Source of the DNA: Hexactinellida sp. DTS-2022
Lineage: Eukaryota > Porifera > Hexactinellida
Direction of reading: 5' to 3'
Length of the DNA stretch: 64,000 nucleotides
Assembly: GCA_028753945.1 (NCBI GenBank)
Contig: JAPNXP010000005.1
Coordinates: forward strand, 1,116,001-1,180,000
Part shown: one piece after another, positions 865 to 50,920 of the stretch
Position numbering within the stretch: position 1 is the first letter of the stretch
Layout: every line of letters starts with the position of its first letter
Notes under the pieces: generated by a model
What the model was told of the DNA's origin: nothing
Database searches by the model: none
Seen by the model: the letters and a program-made list of their open reading frames with translations, nothing else
Translations under genes and position numbers: made by a program

Positions 865-2952
865 GGTATCCCACTCAGATGATAGTCCAGAAACGGATTC
901 CTATCTTTCACAGCTTCAATTCATCGAATGCCAATTAGATAATATTCTCCCGAGTAAATTTAGGCTTAGATATAATGTTCTTACTCAGGTAATGACTTTA
1001 AAATCTCACCTGATCTCTCCAGCTTGTTACAGATACTTACAGTCACTCGAATGCCTCTCTTCACCACATCCTAAAACTCTTCAAAAACTCTGCTCAAATT
1101 TTGGGCTAGAGAATGATTTTTCAGCATTTCTTATACAAGCTACCTCTGAGTTTAGCGAAAAGGAAAAGAATATTATTCTTCAACTGGATGAGATACATGT
1201 AAAATCTAACGTCGATTATAAGGGAGGAAAAATATTTGGCTACTCATTGCAACCTGATCACCCGATTAAAACTGTTTTCGCCATAATGGCATCAAGTCTT
1301 TATAAAAAGTGGTCAGAAATTGTCCGCTTGCTTCCATGCTCTTCTAATTCTGCTACCGAGATTTATACAGTGGTCAAGTCTGTCATTGGTGACATTGAAC
1401 GCTGTGGTCTAAAGGTGCAAGTTATCTGTACTGATAACTATCCTCTAAATGTGAACTTTTTCAAACTTTTTTCCTCTGATAAAAAGACTCTGACACCTAC
1501 TGCTATTCATCCCATTGATTCAGAAAGAAAAATCTTCTTAATTTTCGATTTCGTTCATATTGTAAAATCAATACGAAACAACTGGATCAATTTGAAAGAT
1601 TATGAACATACATTTTCTTATCCAAACACACTTATTTTTCCGAACTATGAAAATAGCCAACATATACATATTTCGAAATTTCAAGATATTCGAATGCTTT
1701 ACAAAAACGAGCAGAGTTTAATCATCAAACAGGGTCATCGTTTAACAGCTAAAGCTTGCTGGCCCACAAGTTTAGAGCGGCAAAATGTCAGCCTAGCTTT
1801 AAAGATTTTCGACACATCAACACTCGCTGCATTATCTATTTACAACTCCGCACGAACAAATTCCGAAACCCAAACAATCGAGTTTCTTGACATTATTATA
1901 AAAGTTTGGAAAATCTTCAATGTCAATACAACACATAAGCATATCAGACTTAATGATGATTTTTCCAAACCTCTTACGTATGATGATTATCGTTTTATTT
2001 TTCTACGGCTCATTGTTAGTTGGCTTGCACGATGGCGATCTCGTGAAAATAAACACGGTAAATTGAGTCCCCAAACCTTCACAAGCTTCTCTCACTCTGC
2101 CTTGCCCTGATTGAAATAGTAAATCATCTCACTCAAAATTGTGGATTTGATTACGTGCTCACATCACGATTACAAAATGACCCAATCGAACATCATTTTG
2201 GTTTGTATCGTATGATGTCTGGTGCACATTATCATGTTAGTTATTCTCAAATAATTGAAAGTGAACGACGGATCAAGCTATCAAGCATCCTAAAAATATT
2301 CTCGAGAAAGGAACAATCAGATTACGTAAGTTTAAAGGATATGATCGATTCCTGTTCCTCCTCATCTAACGAACCTTCCAATTATGCTTTAAACCTAGAT
2401 ACATACCTCATAGCATTGCAATCCTTTTCGACCATTACTTTTGATAGTTCACTTCTTCAATCAGTTGCCTTTGTCGGTGGATATGCTGTACACTCATATT
2501 TGAAGCAATCTGTCAAGTGTGATACTTGTATTTCATTGATTACACAGGATAAAGAACTCGAAATCGTTGGTACGGAAGATACTTATAAACTAATTCAACT
2601 TATTGACCGAGGTGCTCTCAAATGGCCATCTCATATTGTTATAGATGCCATTATTATTGTGTTAAAGATCTTTATTACAATCGAAAATGACGAAACCTTA
2701 ATGCGACGATTTTTAACAGGACCCTCTAGACAAATCCTAATTCAGCTGACAATTATTTTAATCGAAGAAAGCCAGAGCATAAACTGGAGAAATACATGTA
2801 GTTTTTGCAATGTGCAAGGGTGGACTATCCTCCGAAAGATAACTACAATCACAGCGAACGTTATTTTGGACAATAAAGTACGCAATGTCAATTCCGCTCT
2901 ACGAGAACAAAAAAATATCCACTCTCGTAAACTCAAAAAGTTTAAAGATTAA
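830..2952 (+). pseudogene. P-element (THAP9-like) transposase, frameshifted, no THAP domain
   Basis: Two overlapping frames (830-2110 and one ending at 2952) together match the 998-aa transposase encoded at 35.2-38.3 kb over its catalytic part. Shared landmarks in order are the L-D-E-I-H motif with the first catalytic Asp, then C-T-D-N-Y-P-L-N, then a D-F-V-H-I-V-K-S-I-R-N-N-W block, then A-C-W-P-T-S-L-E-R-Q-N-V, and N-D-P-I-E-H-H-F-G with the late acidic residue. The frame is lost near 2095-2110. One base change of register restores continuity with the second frame, so this is a single frameshift. No THAP zinc finger precedes it; a 15-bp tandem array occupies that place. It is therefore a dead, 5'-truncated copy. 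It ends in L-K-K-F-K-D, like its sister copy (L-K-K-F-K-N). Confidence 0.85.
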
Positions 2953-3240
2953 TGAATTAATAACTCAATTTTTACAAACATTATGTACTTCTCCTCAGTT
3001 TTATTACCTTATTATGTATTGTGTCTACAATTGCAATCATCAAAGCTTTTGATTGATATTGTTGATAATAAATTCCAATTAGGACTGTAATTATGATAGA
3101 ACTTAAATACCATTTTTTATATAACAAGATGATTGATTTATTGAGGAAATCATGAATTTCTATATGGCACTTCTAACATATCCATGGTCCGTTTTTTCAT
3201 TTCAGTACTCCGTCCTTATTATTTCGTAGTCCACGATTTA
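2953..3240. other. AT-rich spacer
   Basis: Nothing recognisable; sequence turns into family A repeat at about 3241. Confidence 0.4.
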
Positions 3241-3905
3241 TACTAATTTGACAAATTGCATTAATCTCAGAGATTATACAAGATAGAGACAAACTTGCAA
3301 TTTATCAATTGATTCTTATGCCACGTAGCACCTCTACAAATGTGTCTTGACACCTTGAGGTGTTGATGACATCGTAAAAAAATGTGTTTTCACAATTTTG
3401 TGAATTCTATATTTCGAATGTGTTGGTTGGTGTTGACTGATCTCCCAACACGCACATAAAAAATGCTGAGTCATCACCTATATATTCGACTCAAACTTGA
3501 ATATCTCTAAAATGAAGTGAGCTAAATGGAAACTTCCACCGCTCTAAGGGTCGTTCCCTTCCGAAACACCTCTCTGAAATAATTTAACTCCTTCATAGTG
3601 ATGATGTCATGGCGAAAAAAATCCCAAATTGCAGCCTGTGCCGACAGCATGTTCTTTGGAGGCACTATCAATAAACCACCAACAAAATATAGTGCCACCA
3701 AAGGAACATGCGTCGGCACCAGAGGCGGCGCCAGGATTTCAGGTAGGGGAGCTCTGGGGGGGGCCAGGGAGGATTTCAGGGGGGGGCACACTGTAGAACA
3801 ATGTTATTCTAGGGGGGGGGGCAGCCTCAAAAGAGGGGGGGCCATGGCCCCCCTGGCCCCCCCTGGCGCCGCCACTGGTCGGCACAGGCTGCAATTTTGG
3901 ATTTT
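3241..3905 (+). repeat. Family A repeat, 3' half plus terminal hairpin
   Basis: Matches the segment seen many times at 49-62 kb: an AT-rich stretch with a CTCAGAGAT motif, an ACACCTTGAGGTG motif, a block around TGCTGAGTCATCA, then GATGATGxCATGGCG. It ends in the ~125-bp hairpin whose arms start AAAATCCAAAATTGCAG. The hairpin arm is interrupted here by a 158-bp hAT MITE at 3720-3877. Non-coding. Confidence 0.75.
3720..3877. mobile_element. hAT-type MITE, 158 bp, with 8-bp target duplication
   Basis: Termini are CAGAGGCGGCGCCAGG and its near-exact complement ending in CACTG. The flanks are identical 8-bp direct repeats GTCGGCAC at 3712-3719 and 3878-3885. CAG...CTG ends plus an 8-bp duplication are hAT hallmarks. 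The interior is G-rich on the left and C-rich on the right, with no coding capacity. It inserted into the arm of a family A hairpin. Confidence 0.85.
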
Positions 3906-4129
3906 TATTTTTATTTTTATTTCACCGTAGCAGGTGCTATATGCCATGTCTATCATATAGATTGGAAGCCTATTTAGGCACAATAAATGGTATTTAATCA
4001 GGAGATTAATAATCCTGTAATTTTTTATAAAATTTACTCGCGTTAATTTCATGATTTGAAAATGTTCAGCTCCAATTCACGTTAATTTCATAGAGCGTTA
4101 ATTTCCTTCGCGTTAATTTCCTATAATAA

Positions 4130-4720
4130 GGTAAACTTAAACTCAAGATGGTTTAAGATAGAAATAAACTTCAAATTCAACAATCATTCCTTTGTCCCGT
4201 ACAAATTGTTAAATGAGTATAAATACCATGTGATGTTCATGACATGGCGAAAAAAATCCAAAATTGCAGCCTGTGTCGACAGCATGTTCCATTGGAGGCA
4301 CTATCAATAGACCAAGACCAAAATATAGCCACCAAATGAACATGCGTCGGCACAGGCTGCAATTTTGGATTTTATTATCCTTCCGTATCCTCTCCACAGA
4401 ATAGAGTTTTATTAACTAAGAACTTAAAATTTCAGGATAGGTGTCTCATGGGTTACAGATGTGCACCTGGGGTCACGATTTATTAATTTCGACTTGGGAA
4501 AATTTTTAACGGGACTTTTAGCTTTTTTTAGCTGAGATGTATTAATATTATAATTTTTCATTGTCATCTGTTCGCACTCTTAGTCCAATTAGTTAATGTA
4601 CTTTACACCCCTGAACTTAATCTTATTACTGAATATATTCTGAATCTTTTTATTTATTTTATTTTAATGTACAAAATTGTAAGCGCATTGAGACATTTGT
4701 ATAATGCGCAAACAAATGCT

Positions 4721-4756
<36 letters not shown>

Positions 4757-5700
4757 TTCTAAAATCGTAAATTCATTAATATTCAGTTATGCATTATTTC
4801 GTGGTTTCGATGAAGATCTACTATTTATGAATAATTCAATTAGATTCAGTGTTATTTCGATTCAAGTTATTGTTGATATTATAATTACAATAAAGAATTC
4901 TAGTATATATGAATAATTAATTTACATTCAATAGCTATTACTATACAAATCAATTTCTGATATCATAGTTACAATAATTTATTCTATTTATATGAATAAT
5001 TCAATTTGATTCAATAGCTGTTGCTATAAATCGAATTCTAAATACAATAGTTGTAATGATGTTTTCTCCTATATGAAAATTCAATTTCACTCAACAGTTA
5101 TTCAATTTCAGAACGATTTCTGATATTCAAACAATGGATTAATGAGATGGAATATCTATTTGTAGAAATATTTGTCTATGTGTGTGCTTGGTGCCCGAAA
5201 TGTATTAGAGTGTGAGGGGGGGGTTTATAACGCGTTGTAATAATTATATTGATTCAACTTGTGAGATTGAGTAGGATTCGATTTTCTAATTGAAAATTAT
5301 GATTATATATTCCATAACAACGACAAATTATGTGAATATATTTCCTTCTTCAAGAATCTCTTATACAATATTAATATACTGACGTAATTAATTATAATTA
5401 ACTCCGTCTATAATTGACATAATATTATATAGATGCTTCCAATTTGTTTAATCATCGAGTGTGCGGAATTGAAATTTGGTTCCAAATTAATTTAACTTAG
5501 TAAATTCAAGTTGACATTGCAATTGGTGTTAAATTATTAACAATTTTTATAAATATTTATACTAATTAGCTAAATGTCATTTATCTCAGAGATGATGCAA
5601 GATAGAAACAAACTTACAATTTATCAATTGATACTTATGCCACATAATACCTCTACAAATGTGCCTTGACACCATATAATTGCCACTAACATAAGTTAGG
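4130..5700. repeat. Family A-related repeat with hairpin and flanking sequences
   Basis: A second hairpin copy lies at about 4249-4376. The stretch 4437-5220 is related to 44.3-45.05 kb and, inverted, to 46.8-47.5 kb (shared blocks such as GGGACTTTTAGCTTTTTT and GATTCAGTGTTATTTCGATT). 5560-5690 repeats the CTCAGAGAT block. No protein-coding gene is seen across the region. Confidence 0.6.
4600..4752 (+). repeat. SINE/L2-like 3' tail ending in (TTA)n
   Basis: A motif AAGCGCATTGAGACATTTG followed by TATAATGCGC and then a run of about ten ATT units. A short GCGC-containing hairpin and trinucleotide tail of this form is common at the 3' end of L2-clade LINEs and SINEs mobilised by them. No LINE coding sequence is present. 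It is inserted in family A sequence. Confidence 0.4.
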
Positions 5701-9455: not shown

Positions 9456-12225
9456 TTTTTTTAATGCATAACCACCAAACACATGGTTTTACTTTTTCGA
9501 GAAAATTCTCATCGAACATATGTTGTGGAATTGTTTACTTGAAGCACCTCAGATTGTTGTAACTTTTAAGAAATCCCATTGTTCGTACCTCAGGTATTAT
9601 CAAAAAACATCATTACGGAATCTCAATATAATACTTGCAGAATAAGGATTTTCAATCAAAACAATTGACATAGCTAAAATTAACTTGATTTACAAGTACA
9701 TTAGAATAAAACCCACTTTAACCCAGTTTAACCCACAAAAAGGTGTTTTGCCCAGCCCGAGTTTAACCAGGTGTAGCAGCCCAGATTAACCCCCACCCAG
9801 TTTAATCCCTGGGATAAATTAGGCTAGCCCAGATTAACCCCCGGGGTTAAACTGGGCTAGCCTAATTTATACCCCAGAGGTTAAACGAAAGCTAGCCAAT
9901 ATTATACCCCCAGAGCCTATTTTAACCCCCGGGGGTTAAAATAAGCTAGCCTATTTTAACGGCCCTAGTTTATCCCCTGTGTAAATAATTACCAATGAAA
10001 TTATAGTGATTAATAATTCTTCTAAATCAGCTGCTAATACAATAATGAATCTAAGGTACTAATGAACAGATAGGAAAAATTGTCTATGCTTCTAGAATAA
10101 TTGTATATTGATGACTACGTTGAAGTGTTCAGCTAAATTTTCCAGATACAATGCAGTTTCTGTATTTTTTGTCAATGTAAAAGATGCGGGATATGTAAGC
10201 CATTCCATAGAATCCCCACTCTTTGCATAAACAACGATATCATGTTGAATAAGATTAGCTGTGGCCAGTATTTCTGCCTCGGTTGCCCAAACACCACTGG
10301 AGTCAATGGCACTTTCGCTGACATAATTGGAAACCGTTTGAGAAAGATACTTTCTTAGTGTTTCACTCAAACTACCACTCATGTGATGGACGACTTTATT
10401 ACGAATTATAATATGGCTATCTTCTGAACCTGTTAGGATGTAGCTTATTGATCGGAAATAGCAATTACCATCACCTTTAGTTCTGTATATCCGTGCGGGT
10501 ATAGATAGGTAGCCAGATTTTCCAAAGTATTGGGTCTTGCATATATTCAAGTTGAAAACTTTGGCAACTTTTTTTCTAGATTCAGCGGAAATTGGAGAAA
10601 ACAGTCTGTTTGGGTTGAATTGTTTAACTTCAATTAAAACTAGCTCATCCGTACACTCAAGTTTCTTAATCTTAGAATGTGATATTGAAGTTCTTCTCTT
10701 TTTCTTTGATTTACCATCTTCAGCTTTATTATTTGAATCATAAACCTTCAAATTTGCAATATTATATATATTTTTTAGTTTCTTTCCTGTGTTGATATTC
10801 TCTAGGATTGCACGACCTTTATCTAGCAACTCAATGATTTTATAAGGACCTATCCAGCGTGGTTCCATTTTCGATCCCATTCGATGTATTCGCTTCCTGT
10901 TTTTTATGTACACAGTCGCGCCAGGTGATATCACTTTACTATTAAAATGACGGTTATCAAAGTTGCGTTTTTGGTGTTTCTGTGCGTTTGTAATATTAAG
11001 ATCAATTTTGGCGTTGATAGATTCACGCATCACGTCAAGCACCTGTAAAACTTTTGAATTCACCTGCTCAATTGATTTTGGAGGTTTAATGGACAAATCA
11101 ATTGGTAGCTTCGCACTACGACAATACATCGCTTGAAATGGAGTACATTTCGTAGAAGCATGAATGCTTGTGTGATAAGCAAATAGTATTCCTGGGATAT
11201 AAATATCCCAATCATCACCTCTTTCATTTACCAATTTCGCCAATGCAGATTTCAGGGTACGGTTATCTCTTTCCCGTTGTCCATTTGTTTCAGGATGATA
11301 AGCAGAAGAAATTCGATGCTCAGTCTGCAGAATGTCAAGAAGATAATCAATAACTCCGTTCACAAATTCTCTTCCTTGATCACTTATCAGTGTGTCCATA
11401 CATCCCAATCTGCAAACTACTATGTTAGAAAATCAGCTACAGATTTAGAAGTTTTGTCAGGAATGGCAGTAGCTTCTGACCACTTGGAAAAGTGGTCGGA
11501 AATAGCTACAATATATTTGTTGCCACGTATAGTCTCCTGTAAGGGCCCAATGAGATCAATTCCTACAAGACTCCATACTTGAGATGGTACGCGTATCGAA
11601 GACAGCGAAGGTCGGTCCATTTTAAGTTTTGGGTTGACTTCAAAACACTTGATGCATTGTTTACAATATATTTCAATTTCTTGCTTCATACCTAAAAAAT
11701 ACATTTGGGAATCACATGAAACTTTGTGAAATTTGTCTGTTACAAATTACAATTCCGAATCTTGAGAAATTTGACAACACCTATTGCAAAATAAACCCAG
11801 CTGTATTAACAACGGTCTAACAATTGATTGTAGGTAAGTTAGCATCGCCTAATAAACGAATTTACGTAAGCTTTAATATGCCAACAGTTGTATTGCGCTA
11901 CCCATTAGGTGCGAAAGTTTGCTCCCGGATTGAATGTTAAATGAAGTATTAGTAAATATTTACCTTTCCAGTAGAATCTTGATGCGATCTTCTTCTGGTA
12001 GGTTTTGTCACGACCAAAATGACCACCGGTTACAGGGTTACCATGACACATTTTGAGTACTGCATCCACTCCACTTTTTCGTAACACTTGCTTTTCAGCA
12101 TGCATCAGAATCCCATCCTTCAAAGTATATGGCTTAACAGTTTGTCGGAATGATTTTTTCGCATTGACTCGTTTTTCAGGTGGAAGTTTATAGATCTCTT
12201 CTGGATATTTGTTTTCGTTAGATAT

Positions 12226-12461
12226 GTGATGACGGGCTGACAGGAGTGCACTAGAGGGATCCTAGTGTAGGTGGGTTATGCTTAGTACCTGTGGTAGGAG
12301 AACGGCATGGCTCACTGGTAACTAGAACTGGTGTAGACCAGTTGTAGTGTGGTCGAGGGTTACCTTCCTGATGAGTCCTTGTGATAGGACGAAACCACTA
12401 CCCATCACACGTTGCTCTCGGTGAGTGTGGGATACATATTACGGTGTCTCATGCTCATCAC
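12226..12461 (+). mobile_element. 236-bp hammerhead-ribozyme mobile element
   Basis: The element starts GTGATGAC and ends CTCATCAC, giving 7-bp inverted termini. It is flanked by the direct repeats AGATAT at 12220-12225 and 12462-12467. Removing it with one repeat joins the Ginger1 transposase frame without a shift (codons ...TTT TTT ATA TCT AAC GAA...), which shows a precise insertion. Inside are a hairpin CACTAG...CTAGTG (12250-12275), a 7-bp hairpin AACTGGT/ACCAGTT (about 12326-12343), a complete hammerhead ribozyme (12347-12398), and an A-box-like TGGCTCACTGG at 12308-12318. It has no reading frame and no poly(A) tail of its own; the A-run after the right repeat belongs to the target gene. 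Its mechanism of movement is unknown. Confidence 0.8.
12347..12398 (+). ncRNA. Hammerhead ribozyme, stem-III-open form
   Basis: All invariant parts are present. The cleavage triplet GTC is at 12352-12354. Stem I is GAGGG (12355-12359), loop TTA, CCTTC (12363-12367). The core CTGATGA is 12368-12374. Stem II is GTCC (12375-12378), an 8-nt loop, and GGAC (12387-12390). The core GAAA is 12391-12394. Stem III pairs ACCAC (12394-12398) with GTGGT (12349-12353). The only wobble is one G-T pair in stem I. Cleavage is predicted after C12354. Outer stem III pairing beyond 5 bp is imperfect, and loop I is too short for the known stabilising loop contacts, so activity may be modest. It is on the strand opposite to the interrupted Ginger1 gene. 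Confidence 0.85.
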
Positions 12462-12956
12462 AGATATAAAAAAATGCAATATTTGATTGTAGAGTTGATC
12501 ATCCATCAAAACAATGTAGTAAATATATTTGGTAGATCAAACAAGTAATTATGCTCTTCTATATTTATAGTAGTTGAAACAGCAATATAGACACCTTAAG
12601 AGTCGCCGCCACACGCATTGCTTGTATTCTATAAACAAATAACATCATAATTTGCTGACCATTAACTCCGGGGTATAATCTGGGCTAGCCCAGACTATAC
12701 CTGGGGTTAATTTAGGCTAGTCCAGATTAACCCCCAAAAGGGGGTTAATCTGAGCTAAAGGGTATAATCTGGGCTAGCCTAAATTAACCCCGGGGCTTAA
12801 TATGGGCTAGCCCAGTTTATATGTGGGGGTTAATCTAGGCTAGCCCAGATTATCCCTGGGGTTGAACTGGGTGGGGAGGTTAATCTAGGCTGTTACACCT
12901 GGTTTAATTCGGGTTTAACCCAGGGGTGGGTTAAATTTGCCAACCCTGATACAATG

Positions 12957-16729: not shown

Positions 16730-17905
16730 TTACTGCGCCGACTATACTATAGTATAGTGGCCCAGTATTGGAATCACTGCCTTTATTATTTTTATTATTA
16801 CTGTGCCGACTATACTATAGTATAGTGGCCCAGTTCTAATCTTACTGCCTTGGTTAGTTATTAATGTGCCGACTATACTATAGTATAGTGGCCCAGTATT
16901 GGAATCACTGCCTTGGTATATTATTACTGTGCCGACTATACTATAGTATAGTGGCCCAGTATTGGAATCACTGCCTTTATTATTATTATTATTATTATTA
17001 TTTTTTTTACTGTGCCGACTATAGTATAGTGGCCCAGTTCTAATCTTACTGCCTTGGTCATTACTGTGCCGACTATACTATAGTATAGTGGCCCAGTTCT
17101 AATCTTACTGCCTTTATTGTATATTATTACTGTGCCGACTATACTATAGTATAGTGGCCCAGTATTGAAATCACTGCCTTTATTACTGTGCCGACTATAC
17201 TATAGTATAGTAGCCCAGTTTGGAATCACTGCCTTTATTACTGTGCCGACTATACTATAGTATAGTGGCCCAGTATTGAAATCACTGCCTTTATTATTTA
17301 TATTTATATTTTTACTGTGCCGACTATACTATAGTATAGTGGCCCAGTATTGGAATTTGGAATCACTGCCTTTATTACTGTGCCGACTATACTATAGTAT
17401 AGTGGCCCAGTATTGGAATCACTGCCTTTATTTTTATTTTTACTGTGCCGACTATACTATAGTATAGTGGCCCAGTATTGGAATCACTGCCTTTATTACT
17501 GTGCCGACTATACTATAGTATAGTGGCCCAGTATTGGAATTACTGCCTTTATTATTATTTTTACTGTGCCGACTATACTATAGTATAGTGGCCCAGTATT
17601 GGAATCACTGCCTTTATTACTGTGCCGACTATACTATAGTATAGTGGCCCAGTATTGGAATCACTGCCTTTATTACTGTGCCGACTATACTATAGTATAG
17701 TGGCCCAGTATTAGAATCACTGCCTTTATTATTTTTATTATTATTTTTTTTACTGTGCCGACTATACTATAGTATAGTGGCCCAGTATTGGAATCACTGC
17801 CTTTATTATTATTATTTTTATTATTTTTACTGTGCCGACTATACTATAGTATAGTGGCCCAGTATTAGAATCACTGCCTTTATTATTATTTTTATTATTA
17901 TTATT
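16730..17905. repeat. Palindromic satellite array, ~18 units of about 55-80 bp
   Basis: Each unit has a fixed core TGTGCCGAC + TATACTATAGTATA + GTGGCCCAGT. Its central GACTATACTATAGTATAGTGGC is a near-perfect palindrome. A less conserved linker (ATTGGAATCACTGCCTTTATT plus a variable A/T run) follows. Unit length varies because the ATT/TTT run varies; one unit near 17015 has a shortened palindrome. The same unit occurs at 44.08-44.27 kb (3 units), 47.58-47.63 and 48.21-48.25 kb (inverted single units) and 50.69-50.91 kb (4 units). Confidence 0.9.
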
Positions 17906-20014
17906 ATTTCTCCGTAGCAGGTGCCCTGGCCACACCTGTATACATAGAGGGCTGAAACTTGGCATGTAGATTCGGAGTCGACGTCTAATTTGCACCTGGG
18001 GTTACGATTTTGTATTAACAAATTCTTGACACATCTTTAACACCTTTCAAAATTTGTCTGGTCCATAACTCAAAAAATGTTTTACTAAACCCCAAAATTT
18101 TATTTCACATTTGGATTCGCCATAAAATTCTGCGTCTGATGGGAGAAGAAATTTTTCAATAAAGGGGTCAATTTCTGCCATAAATGGGGGTTGAAATTTC
18201 TTTGTTTACTGACACATCAATTTCAGTAAAGTGTTAAATCTAATTCTATTGTTTCAACTTGTAATAATTATATTGATTTAACTTGTTAAATCCTACTCTA
18301 GTGATTCAACTTGCGATAATTATATTGATTTAACTTATAAATTCCAGCTGGCTTCTATTTAATTTTAGTATTACTATACAATTGATTAAATTAAATAATA
18401 TAATATAAGGAATTTGTTGACTCAACTCAACCAACCATGGATAACATTGCTAAAATAAATAACTAATAATATAATTTATTATCAATACATAATGAATGAA
18501 TGGCATTAAACTCAAGATGGTTTATGATAGAAACAAACTTCAAATTTATCTCCCGTCCTTGTGGCTCGGATCAATTAACAAATGGATCATGACACCTTGA
18601 GGCGTTGATGACTTGGCGAAAAAAAATCCAAAATTGCAGATGTGCTGACAGCATGTTCTTTTGGAGGCACTATCAATAACCCACCAACAAAATATAGTGC
18701 CACCAAAGGAACATGCGTCGGCACAGCTGCAATTTTGGATTTTTTTTTTTTTTTTCTCCGTAGACGGTGCAATGGCCAGAGCTTAATTGTTGATGGGCTG
18801 AAACTTGGCATGTAGGTGCGATGGGACCGTCTAATTTGCACCTGGGGTTACGATTTTTTATTAACAAATTTTGGACACATCTTTAACACCTTTCAAAATT
18901 TGTCTGGTCCATAACTCAAAATATGTTTTACTAAACCCGCAAATTTTATTTCATATTTGGATTCACCGTAAAATTCTGCGTCTGATGGGAGAAGAAATCT
19001 TTCAATAAGGGGTTTAATTTCTGCCACAAATGGGGGCTTAAATTTCTTTGTTTACTCACACTTCAGTTTCAGTAAAGTGTTAAATCTAATTCCATTGTTT
19101 CAACTTGTAATAATTATATTGATTTAACTTGTTAAATCCTACTCTAGTGATTCAACTTGCTATAATTATATTGATTTAACTTGTGAATTCAAGCTGGCTT
19201 CTATTTTGCAATTGAAAATTAAGATTATATATTTCATAACAACGACATATTATGTGATTATATTTACTTCTGCGAGAATATAATTGCACTGTTAATATAC
19301 TGACGTAATTAATTATAAATAATTCAGTTTGTATTTAACTTATATAGAAGCTTCCAATTTGTATATTAGAGGTTATCGAGTGTGCGGAATTGAAATTTGA
19401 TAGATAAATTAATTAATTAATTATTTATGACAAAATAATTGAACTTAATAATTGTATGTTGACATTGAAATTGGTGTCATATTATAAATAATATTAATAA
19501 TTATTTATACTAATTAATTAAATATCATAAATCTCAGAGATCATAGAAGATAGAAACAAACTTTCAATATATCAATTGGTCCTTATGACACGTGCCACCT
19601 ATACAAGTGGGTCTTGACACCTTTAGGTGATGATGACATCGTTAAAAAAATGTGTTTTTACAATTTTGTTAATTCGATATTTAAAATGGGTTAGTTAATG
19701 TTGGTTGATGACCCAACACCCACTTAAAAAATGCTGAGTCATTACAGATTATATTCTACTGAAACTAGAATATCTCTTTAATGAAGTGAGCTGAATGGAA
19801 ACTTCCACCACTCTAAAGGGTCGTTGCCTTCTGAAACACCTTTCTGAAATAATTTAACACCTTCATAGTGATGATGACTGGGCGAAAAAAAATCCAAAAT
19901 TGCACCCTGTCTGACAGCATGCTCCTTTGGAGGCACTATCAATAACCAACCAATAAAATATAGTGCCACCAAAGGAACATGCGTCGGCACAGGGTGCAAT
20001 TTTGGATTTTTTTA
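17906..20014 (+). repeat. Two family A units with terminal hairpins
   Basis: Unit 1 begins at CTCCGTAGCAGGTGCCCTGG (17909) and ends with the hairpin at about 18617-18745; it lacks part of the interior seen elsewhere. Unit 2 starts TCTCCGTAGACGGTG at about 18755 and ends with the hairpin at about 19885-20014. Unit 2 is closely similar to 57.05-58.2 kb, including long identical stretches. Non-coding. Confidence 0.8.
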
Positions 20015-43731: not shown

Positions 43732-44121
43732 ATGAATATTCAAGAAAACTATTTTGCAATTGACTTCTATGGGTCGGAGTATACTATGGTCAAGCATTTA
43801 ACTAACATTGGAATAAGTTGTATGAAATATAAATATCAGATGAAGTGTATTGGTTGCTCTCAAGAAATTTCCAAGGTAGTTAACATCACCACATTCAATA
43901 AATTCACGAACAATTGCCAAGCTACGATCGAAAGTAAGATGACATATCTCTTATGTAAAATATGCAAGCGTCAAAATGATGTTATACAATTACAAGGGGA
44001 TTTCATTCAACTGTCTCCGTTAATAATTTTAGAATTGGGCAATCTTCATCAAAAGTCCAGGGTTGTAAATAAATCATTTTTACTGTGCCGACTATACTAT
44101 AGTATAGTGGCCCAGTTCTAA
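43732..44121 (+). CDS. Small CxxC protein fragment ending in satellite sequence
   Basis: 129-codon frame with two C-x2-C pairs (C-I-G-C and C-K-I-C) about 38 residues apart, followed by L-S-P-L-I-I-L-E-L-G. This spacing is reminiscent of a zinc-binding insertion in USP/USPL1-type peptidases, sometimes found in transposons, but I do not recognise the family firmly. The last ~20 codons are not part of any protein: they come from a CAGGGTTGTAAATAAATC hAT-like end (44058) and a palindromic satellite unit. It is probably a truncated gene fragment, or an exon of an unidentified gene. Confidence 0.3.
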   Translation: MNIQENYFAIDFYGSEYTMVKHLTNIGISCMKYKYQMKCIGCSQEISKVVNITTFNKFTNNCQATIESKMTYLLCKICKRQNDVIQLQGDFIQLSPLIILELGNLHQKSRVVNKSFLLCRLYYSIVAQF

Positions 44122-44275
44122 TCTTACTGCCTTGGATTTTTACTGTGCCGACTATACTATAGTATAGTGGCCCAGTATTGGTCTTAGTGCCTTGGATGTT
44201 TTTTTGTTGTTTTTACTGTGCCGACTATACTATAGTATAGTGCACCCAGTATTGGTCTTAGTGCCTTGGATTTTT
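44082..44275 (+). repeat. Palindromic satellite, three units
   Basis: Three copies of the TGTGCCGACTATACTATAGT unit described at 16.7 kb. The second and third units read TTGGTCTTAGTGCC in the linker instead of TTGGAATCACTGCC, so they form a subfamily also seen inverted at 47.58 and 48.21 kb. Confidence 0.85.
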
Positions 44276-45440
44276 TTTTATTTATATATTTCTCCGTGTC
44301 GCCTCCCCAGGCTAAACCTTAAGTGCTAGAGCTCTGAGATTTTTAGGATAGGTGTCTGGTTGTTGATTAATGTGCACTTCGTGGCCTGATTTTTCAATTT
44401 CGACTTGGGAAAAATTTTAACGGGACTTTTAGCTTTTTTTGTCCCATAAGAAAATTAAACCAATAACAAGAAAAATTTTCGAATCATTAGTATCAGAAAA
44501 GTATTTTGCAACTGATAGCTCTCCACGATTTTTTTAATCCGTCCTTATTTTCCTGAGAATTAGGCTCAAAGTTGCCACAATTCACCCTTAACTTTCTAAA
44601 ATAGAAATTTAATTAATATTCAATTATGCAATTATTTCGTGGTTTCGATGAATAACTACTATTTATGAATAATTCAATTAGATTCAGTGTTATTTCGATT
44701 CAAGTTATTGTTGATATCATAATTACAATAAAGAATTCTTGTATATATGAATAGTTAATTTACATTCAATAGCTATTACTATACAAATAAATTTCTGATA
44801 TCATAGTTACAATAAAGTATTCTATTTATATGAATAATTCAATTTGATTCGATAGCTGCTACTATATAAATTGATTTCTTAGTTGTATTGAAGTTTTATC
44901 CTATATGAAAATTCAATTTCACTCAACAGTTATTCAATTTCAGAACGATTTCTGATATTCAAACAATGGATTAATGAGATGGAATATCTATTTGTATAAA
45001 TATTTGTCTATGTGTGTGCTTGGTGCCCGAAATGTATTAGAGTATAAGGGGGGGTTTATAACGCATTAATAATGGAAATATAAACTTAATCCCATATGTC
45101 ATTCTAAGTAAGCGAGTATGCTGATTTCAATTTTAAAACGATGACTGATATACAAAAAATCCAAAATTGCAGCTGTGCCGACGCATGTTCCTTTTGTGGC
45201 ACTATATTTTGGTGGTGGTTTATTGATAGTGCCTCCAAAGGAACACGCTTGTGGCACAGCTGCAATTTTGGATTTTTTTCGCCATGTCATGAACACCTCA
45301 TAGTGTTTAGTCTCATTTAACAAGTTGTACGGGACAAAGGAACCATTGTTGATTTTAAATTATTTCTATCTTGAACCATCTTGGGTTTAATGCCATTCAT
45401 TCATTATGTATAGATAATAAATGATATAAATAGTTAATTA
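44276..45440 (+). repeat. Family A relative (variant with CTCCGTGTCGCCTCCCC start)
   Basis: Starts TCTCCGTGTCGCCTCCCCAG and carries the blocks GTGCACTTCGTGGCCTG and GGGACTTTTAGC. It is the reverse complement of 46.75-47.56 kb and of 47.64-48.17 kb. It ends with a hairpin at about 45157-45280. Non-coding. Confidence 0.7.
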
Positions 45441-49131: not shown

Positions 49132-50689
49132 GACGTTCAAGACATGGCGAAAAAAAATCCAAAATTGCAGCTGTGCGACAGCATGTTAATAGACAACCAC
49201 CAAAATATAGTGCCACCAAAGGAACATGCGTCGGCACAGGCTGCAATTTTGGATTTTTTTCTCCGTAGACGGTGCCCTGGCCACAGCTTTATAGTTGATG
49301 GGCTTAAACTTTGCATGTAGGTGCGATGGGACCGTCTAATTTGCACCTGGGGTAACGATTTCTGATTAAGATATTTTTGACACATCTTTAACACCTTTCA
49401 AATTTTGTCTGCTCCATAACTCAAAAATTCTTTTACTAAACCCCCAAATTTTATTTCATATTTGGATTCACCATAAAATTCTGCGTCTGATGGGTGAAGA
49501 AAATTTTCAATAAATGGTTTAATTTCTGCCATAAATGGGGGTTGAAATTTCTTTGTTTACTCACACTTCAATTTCAGTAAAAGTGTTAAATCTAATTCCA
49601 TTGTTTCAACTTGTAATAATTATATTGATTTAACTTGTTAAATCTTACTCTATTGTTTCAACTTGAGATAAATATATTGATTCAACTTATAAATTCCAGC
49701 TGGCTTCTATTTAATTGTAGTATTACTATACAATGGATTAAATAAAATATAATGATATAAGGAATTTGTTGACTAAACTCAAATCACCGTGGATAACATT
49801 GCTAAAATAAATAACTAATAATTTAATTTATTATAAAAAAGTAATGAATGAATGGCATTAAACTAAAGATGGTTTATGATAGAACCGTTAAGATTTTACA
49901 TACCACAACAACGACAGATTATGTGATTATATTTACTTCTGCGTTAATATTATTGCACTGTTAATATACTGACGTAATTAATTATAATTAATTCAGTCAG
50001 TATATGACTTATATAGATGCTTCCAATTTGTTTATTAGGGGTTATCGAGTGTGCGGAATTGAAATTTGATGGACAAATTAATTTATTTATTATTTATGAC
50101 AAAATAATTAAACTTAATAAATATAAGTTGACATTGAAATTGGTGTTAAATTATAAATAATATTAATAATTATATATACTAATTAATTAAATATCATAAA
50201 TCTCAGAGATCATAGAAGATAGAAACAAACTTTCAATTTATCAATTGGTCCTTATGGCACGTGCCACCTATACAAGTGGGTCTTGACACCTTGAGGTGAT
50301 GATGACATCGTTAAAAAAATGTGTTTTTACAATTTTGTTAATTCGATATTAAAAATGGGTTAGTTCATGTTGAGTGATGACCCAACACTCACATAAAAAA
50401 TGCTGAGTCATCAGTTGTTATATTCTACTCAAACTTGAATATCGCTAAAAGGAAGTGAACTAAAACGAAACTTCCACCACTCTAAGGGTCGATGCCTTCT
50501 GTAACACCTTTTTGAAATGATTTAACACCTTTATAGTGATGATGACTTGGCGAAAAAAAAATCCAAAATTGCATCCTGTGCCGACAGCATGTTCCATTGG
50601 AGGCACTATCAATAAACCACCAACAAAATATAGTGCCACCCAAGGAACATGCGTCGGCACAGGATGCAATTTTGGATTTTTTTTTACTG

Positions 50690-50920
50690 TGCCGACTATA
50701 CTATAGTATAGTGGCCCAGTATTGGAATCACTGCCTTTATTACTGTGCCGACTATACTATAGTATAGTGGCCCAGTATTGGAATCACTGCCTTTATTACT
50801 GTGCCGACTATACTATAGTATAGTGGCCCAGTATTAGAATCACTGCCTTTATTACTGTGCCGACTATACTATAGTATAGTGGCCCAGTATTGGAATCACT
50901 GCCTTTATTTTTATTATTTT
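50690..50920 (+). repeat. Palindromic satellite, four units
   Basis: Four units of the 16.7-kb satellite inserted between the hairpin and the TCTCCGTAGACGG start of a family A unit. The corresponding point of the right arm (about 59690) has none. Confidence 0.85.

Follow-up and report, generated by a model that had tools for sequence, protein, structure and literature searches.

The window analysed here is a 64-kb stretch of a glass sponge genome (G000:C14:1116001-1180000), taken from a 112.4-Mb assembly of 18 contigs. A chitobiase-like reading frame elsewhere in this genome (L095) has 12 matches, of which two are proteins assigned to the glass sponge Oopsacas minuta (55% identity); identity to the other records is as high as 90%. 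It contains, on the minus strand, a Ginger1-like DNA transposon (position 9756 to 12913, outer limits approximate) with integrase zinc-finger and OTU domains and with inverted arms at 9756-9794 and 12875-12913. This transposon hosts an insertion, on the plus strand, of a 238-bp element (12225 to 12462, TGTGATGA...TCATCACA, hereafter unit U), the limits of which are given by identical ends in dispersed copies. The 5' terminus TGTGATGA (12225-12232) is of the TGTNR type, and the 3' terminus is TCATCACA (12455-12462). All further features of U lie on the same strand: a type III hammerhead ribozyme (12347-12400), an internal copy of the 3' terminus immediately downstream of stem III of the ribozyme (CATCACA, 12403-12409), and a 3' domain predicted to form a hairpin with CATCACA at its end (12410-12462). 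The element is flanked by a 4-bp target-site duplication (TSD), the left and right copies of GATA being at 12221-12224 and 12463-12466.

The insertion is precise, as an earlier sequence-only reading of this DNA had claimed. The filled site is common to three Ginger1-like copies (L001-L003), and two Ginger1-like copies (L096 and L097) exhibit the exact empty site with a single GATA. Joining the flanks leaves one reading frame out of three open through the junction, near the site.

Limits of the element and target-site duplications

The same reading had taken the element to be 236 bp long and flanked by 6-bp AGATAT repeats. The element stands, but its size has to be corrected by one base on each side. 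A search with the 5' 19-mer, whose first letter is a T, gave 41 matches at up to 2 mismatches, and every one of them has this T. CACA is the 3' end in 27 of 30 aligned copies (exceptions L012, L019 and L021). Since the T start and the CACA end are common to the copies, the element extends from 12225 to 12462 with ends TG...CA, and the AGATAT repeat is nothing but the 4-bp GATA plus the invariant T and A of the element. The combination of 236 bp with a 6-bp TSD was thus rejected, the 19-mer starts, the copy ends and the TSD statistics all favouring 238 bp and 4 bp.

These statistics come from 27 independent sites of the window's family (L001-L030 after collapsing three shared-flank copies and one tandem pair). 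A perfect 4-bp TSD is found at 17 of them, against 4 in 702 pairings (0.57%) of the left flank of one site with the right flank of another. Two more sites match at 3 of 4 bp and eight at fewer; with the 238-bp framing, no 5- or 6-bp flank match occurs at any of the 27. Five of the 17 perfect TSDs involve a shifted start or the outermost ends of an element that is larger or interrupted (L012, L019/L022, L027, L028, L030). An automatic survey, in which ends were picked by terminal repeat alone, blind to the TSD, yielded perfect 4-bp TSDs in 19 of 62 cases (null 0.58%), a low count because some of its ends are plainly wrong.

The window's family combines TG...CA ends with 4-bp TSDs, both features of plant-type LTR retrozymes, and equally TGTNR ends with 4-bp TSDs, both features of Ginger1/Ginger2 MITEs. 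In the available text of PMC2836005, TGTNR termini are stated for Gypsy LTRs as well as for Ginger. The inverted terminus is 8 bp long; calling it DNA-transposon-like, as in the sequence-only reading, was an over-reading, as it fits LTRs too.

The hammerhead ribozyme and its family

The ribozyme scores 55.2 bits against the Rfam family RF00008 (gathering score 48.5, E-value = 1.6e-9) and is the sole match at the gathering score within the 64-kb window. The complete hammerhead recognised from the letters was recovered, with GTC at 12352-12354, CTGATGA at 12368-12374, GAAA at 12391-12394 and a predicted cut at C12354/G12355. The window copy exhibits a C to U change in stem I that leads to a G.U pair. 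Its hammerhead in isolation has a minimum-energy fold different from the textbook hammerhead, the folds of L005 and L091 being of the textbook form; the minimum-energy fold of the whole unit is without a hammerhead.

A 28-nt hammerhead pattern (up to 3 mismatches) has 119 matches in the genome and none when reversed, and at least 64 genome sequences pass the curated RF00008 score (68 scored of 12319 loose candidates). The same hammerhead pattern gave no match in viral contigs. The repeated copies anticipated for the element do exist (at least 50 genome matches, with 40 of 272 candidates scored); they share their ends, and the core is kept in 45 of 51 distinct hammerheads. These 51 are what remains of 53 distinct hammerheads after two, both misregistered and both from L094, were left out of the covariation count. 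Stem cells are paired in 98.0% of cases, against at most 67.5% when the stems are slid. Changes on both sides are found in 4 pairs (19 cells), a level reached by none of 500 shuffles, which is support rather than proof given that the shuffles do not keep relatedness. In 22 hand-delimited units (including L098, whose end is cut), the mean majority share is 0.95 for ribozyme columns versus 0.63 elsewhere. A conserved core with paired, covarying stems, as expected of a functional hammerhead ribozyme, is thus present. On the plain reading of these alignments, the fold of the ribozyme appears to be under selection.

Delimited units range from 208 to 358 bp. Their middles are strongly diverged and their ends are of the same kind, with pairs such as TGTGACGAG...CTCATAACA, TGTTATGAG...CTCATATCA, TGTGACGAA...TTCATTACA and others in the diverged units. 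Fourteen further single units, belonging to the window's and other families and some of them interrupted, were picked where ends are visible and delimited by hand; ten exhibit a perfect 4-bp TSD. The sampled loci without delimitation include L032, L082-L084, L086, L088, L094, L107, L109, L113 and L114. Between 22 distinct equal-length copies the average difference is 2.0%, and the family is apparently recent. One copy of the window's family, in L013 (~1483-1912), is located within a putative other small element (TGTTGTGCA...TGCACAACA, TSD CTAG). Elsewhere in the window, three tandem-repeat arrays (16790-17908, 44076-44279 and 50680-50909) share a palindromic core (GTGCCGACTATACTATAGTATAGTGGCCCAG).

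In the window copy, the internal 7-base sequence (12403-12409) is the same as the terminal one (12456-12462). Over 21 of the 22 units (L098, with its cut end, being left out), the internal copy is an exact or near match to the unit's own 3' end, with 133 of 147 positions matching. Shuffling the 3' ends among the 21 units never gave more than 123 matches in 5000 tries. Across families, the internal copy tracks the 3' end of its own unit.

Multi-unit forms and an LTR element of the same genome

Hand delimitation of ten multi-unit elements revealed a perfect outer 4-bp TSD in nine; L112 was left out, its flanks repeating those of L111. Three are 5'-to-3' direct forms. A linker is present in L033 (TSD AAAC) and in L043 (CTAG); L044 (CTCC) has none, and its two units nearly abut. 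The other seven (L031, L034, L036, L040, L091, L098 and L099) have two outward 5' ends, and all except L040 have a perfect TSD. In several inverted forms the junction is a hairpin of palindromic sequence, for example TCATAACG-CCCGTATACGGG-CGTTATGA, the window-family version of which is found at three loci only. L091 (224-2407, G000:C1 ~7627723-7629906) is a 2.2-kb, largely palindromic multimer with TSD CTAT, made of five hammerhead units, hairpins and linkers. For L099, a palindrome running into host DNA was considered and rejected: its flanks differ, its TSD is ATAC, and the early reading was due to a false ribozyme match.

The linkers measure 131 bp (L033), 161 bp (L091) and 199 bp (L098). 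A type III hammerhead is identified by Rfam within both terminal repeats of L033, the first with a core change, and of L091. Among the linked direct forms read (L033, L034, L043 and L091), L091 is the only one with both ribozymes intact: the cut-site triplet is altered in L034, and L043 has lost the ribozyme from its first unit and has its 3' unit split by ~1.1 kb of other DNA. In both L033 and L043, the same 5' unit, truncated at position 180, precedes a 3' unit with an intact end, although the two elements are at different sites and have different TSDs. The junction CCACTTCCAC/TAAGTAAGAG is common to L031, L033, L034 and L043 (TSDs ATAT, AAAC, CTAG and CTAG, respectively). Judged by the sequences, this shared junction marks a shortened 5' unit that was passed on over several rounds of insertion.

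The linkers of two direct lineages (L033/L034/L043 and L091) end in a clear purine tract before the next unit, GGAAGGGAACCTGA followed by TGTGATG in L033 and AAAGGGAAGGTGA followed by TGTGACG in L091; the linker end of L098 has no purine tract. We searched the genome with the pattern shared by the L033 and L091 tracts (up to 1 mismatch). There are 11 matches versus 2 in the reversed control. Six fall within known multi-unit loci, and of the five outside, two belong to LTR elements (L118 and L120) and three do not. L119, L121 and L122 were rejected as further box-bearing LTR elements, no paired LTR being seen. An 18-mer of L091, AAAGGGAAGGTGATGTGA, matches exactly the junction of polypurine tract (PPT) and LTR in both L118 and L120, and the L091 tract with the next end (AAAGGGAAGGTGA followed by TGTGA) is identical to the PPT-LTR junction of the L120 element.

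In L118 and L120 what reads as the end of a coding region is followed by AAAAGGGAAGGTGA and then by a repeat of 190 or 187 bp. The repeat of L120 (TGTGATAAAG...TTCATCACA) has a second copy 4.7 kb upstream, delimiting a 4.9-kb LTR element (G000:C6:3745102-3749961) with two 187-bp LTRs that are 99% identical and terminate in TTCATCACA, and with the TSD ATGT on both sides. This LTR has 7 genome matches only. An rve integrase match (C6:3748643-3748933, 50.4 bits, containing one stop) lies near the 3' end of the element, which is the arrangement of Gypsy-type and not of Copia-type elements. The internal region begins with TTAAGTATTTAG, its first TGG being at +33. The sequence TTAAGTA directly follows the 5' LTR; in L033 the truncated 5' unit stops inside the internal copy of the 3' end and continues with TAAGTAAG. 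At a guess, this internal copy could represent an alternative end of the LTR.

The same genome thus holds an LTR element with matching PPT, LTR ends and TSD length. A PPT shared with a host LTR retrotransposon is a feature of plant retrozymes; it is present here in the L033 and L091 lineages, with the exact box in L091, and not in L098. The LTR-element pieces examined have no Rfam match up to an E-value of 0.5, as expected if only boxes are shared: plant retrozymes are linked to Ty3-gypsy elements by short boxes alone (PMC4918200, in the part available). Both reading and the first TGG position (52 bases past U in L091) indicate that no TGG-type primer-binding site directly follows U, where a palindromic hairpin is found instead.

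Mode of mobilisation and comparison with known systems

We regard it as probable that the element is a unit of a retrozyme-like LTR family that is non-autonomous and relies on enzymes of LTR retrotransposons. The sequence-only reading had offered two options, a new class of non-autonomous element with a ribozyme, or a relative of the retrozymes inserted by an enzyme of the integrase kind. The second option is supported by the TGTNR...YNACA ends, the 4-bp TSDs and the dimers with a purine tract, and further by an integrase-bearing LTR element with a 4-bp TSD and the same PPT-LTR junction. We do not file the family as a member of the plant-type LTR retrozymes, because no tRNA primer-binding site is seen. 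In the proposed cycle, U would act as an LTR that contains a type III hammerhead. Transcripts of multi-unit copies would be cut by the ribozymes at each U in vivo, and the resulting unit-length RNAs could be circularised. A reverse transcriptase, presumably that of an LTR retrotransposon, would copy the RNA via the polypurine tract upstream of U, and an integrase would recognise the TGTNR...YNACA ends and insert the DNA with a 4-bp duplication. A solo U such as the window copy would be the equivalent of a solo LTR.

Two groups of multi-unit forms count against this proposal. The asymmetry of L033 and L043 does so because both ends would come out alike if the DNA were made by canonical LTR synthesis or from a circle produced by the ribozyme; the palindromes with outward 5' ends do so because they are easier for a DNA transposase. 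Further points against it are the lack of a TGG-type primer-binding site next to U, the restriction of the clear purine tract to two direct lineages, the damaged or lost ribozymes in three of the four linked direct forms, the stop within the integrase match, the few matches of the LTR, the three box matches outside LTR elements, and the whole-unit fold without a hammerhead. Palindromic and asymmetric forms do not follow from textbook reverse transcription, and a DNA-level route is possible. The family may accordingly be pictured as a MITE that moves directly as DNA with the help of an integrase-type transposase, Ginger-like or otherwise, the ribozyme being a passenger or acting on host transcripts. 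A DNA transposase would readily account for asymmetric dimers that persist over several insertions and for the six palindromes that carry two 5' ends and a perfect TSD, and the TGTNR termini and 4-bp TSDs are also those of Ginger1 and Ginger2, Ginger having an integrase-type transposase (PMC2836005). We nevertheless judge the MITE reading unlikely. The targets given in the available text of PMC2836005, CCGG/CCGT for Ginger1 and RTATAY for Ginger2, are matched by none and by one (TATA) of the 17 perfect TSDs, respectively, and the same text describes no ribozyme for these elements. The inverted terminus of a solo U is only 8 bp, long inverted arms like those of Ginger1/Ginger2 occurring in the sponge family only in its palindromic forms. 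In a MITE there would be no role for a purine tract that an LTR element has in identical form, and the loci read contain no autonomous element with U-like ends. L094 was considered as such a partner and rejected, its ~1.6-4.9 kb portion being tandem repeat. This 3.3-kb region (L094 ~1621-4897), between two hammerhead loci, consists of diverged tandem repeats with long open stretches in several frames.

A mixed route, in which ribozyme-processed RNA is reverse transcribed and the integrase of the LTR element or an unknown transposase additionally mobilises finished and rearranged copies at the DNA level, would cover the PPT-LTR box together with the inherited asymmetry and the 5'-5' palindromes. 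It requires two routes, one of them through a conjectural DNA excision, and we give it little credence. A retrozyme of the animal kind (type I, non-LTR), inserted through target-primed reverse transcription as in LINEs, would suit multi-copy and sometimes tandem hammerhead units of about 210-360 bp in an animal genome, but is hardly credible and already disfavoured by ribozyme type, TSD and ends: the ribozyme is type III by Rfam, the ends are fixed and the TSDs measure 4 bp, whereas the animal retrozymes covered by the available part of PMC7229834 have type I ribozymes, TSDs longer than 4 bp and no PPT or primer-binding site.

Returning to the retrozyme-like LTR family, a more specific version of it can be put forward, tentatively and with considerable doubt: a glass-sponge lineage of LTR retrozymes that would be self-primed by the hairpin without tRNA, would regularly make palindromic ribozyme copies, and would be inserted by a Gypsy-type integrase via any two outward TGTNR ends. 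If true, LTR-type hammerhead retrozymes would have a greater age than thought, or would pass between kingdoms more readily.

According to the available parts of PMC7229834 and PMC7761336, LTR-type retrozymes with type III hammerheads are those of plants, and type I, non-LTR retrozymes those of animals. HDV-like circular RNAs from toads and termites are also described as carrying type III motifs, insects being mentioned (PMC7761336, in part); type III itself is thus not new to animals, and the LTR-type element is. The open-licence literature, searched by title and start of abstract, yielded no animal LTR-type retrozyme among the entries listed, which is no proof that the finding is unpublished. 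A large, diverse animal family with LTR-type ends would break the plant/animal split of retrozymes, would bear on the origin of viroid-like circular RNAs, and would offer an animal for testing how ribozyme-bearing elements borrow LTR enzymes.

The L120 LTR element of the same genome has in common with the family the PPT AAAGGGAAGGTGA, the LTR start TGTGA, the end TCATCACA and the 4-bp TSD. It differs by its 4.9-kb size, its integrase domain, its 187-bp LTR and the lack of an Rfam match in the pieces examined. With the plant LTR retrozymes, as described in the available text of PMC4918200, the sponge family shares a type III hammerhead housed in terminal repeats a few hundred bp long, TSDs of 4 bp, common solo copies, dimers with a non-coding linker, and a PPT and LTR ends in common with an LTR element of its own genome. 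In contrast to the plant elements, which have linkers of 300-600 bp and a tRNA-Met primer-binding site (same source), the sponge family has shorter linkers and a palindromic hairpin in place of that site, together with frequent palindromic forms and a 7-bp end copied inside the unit.
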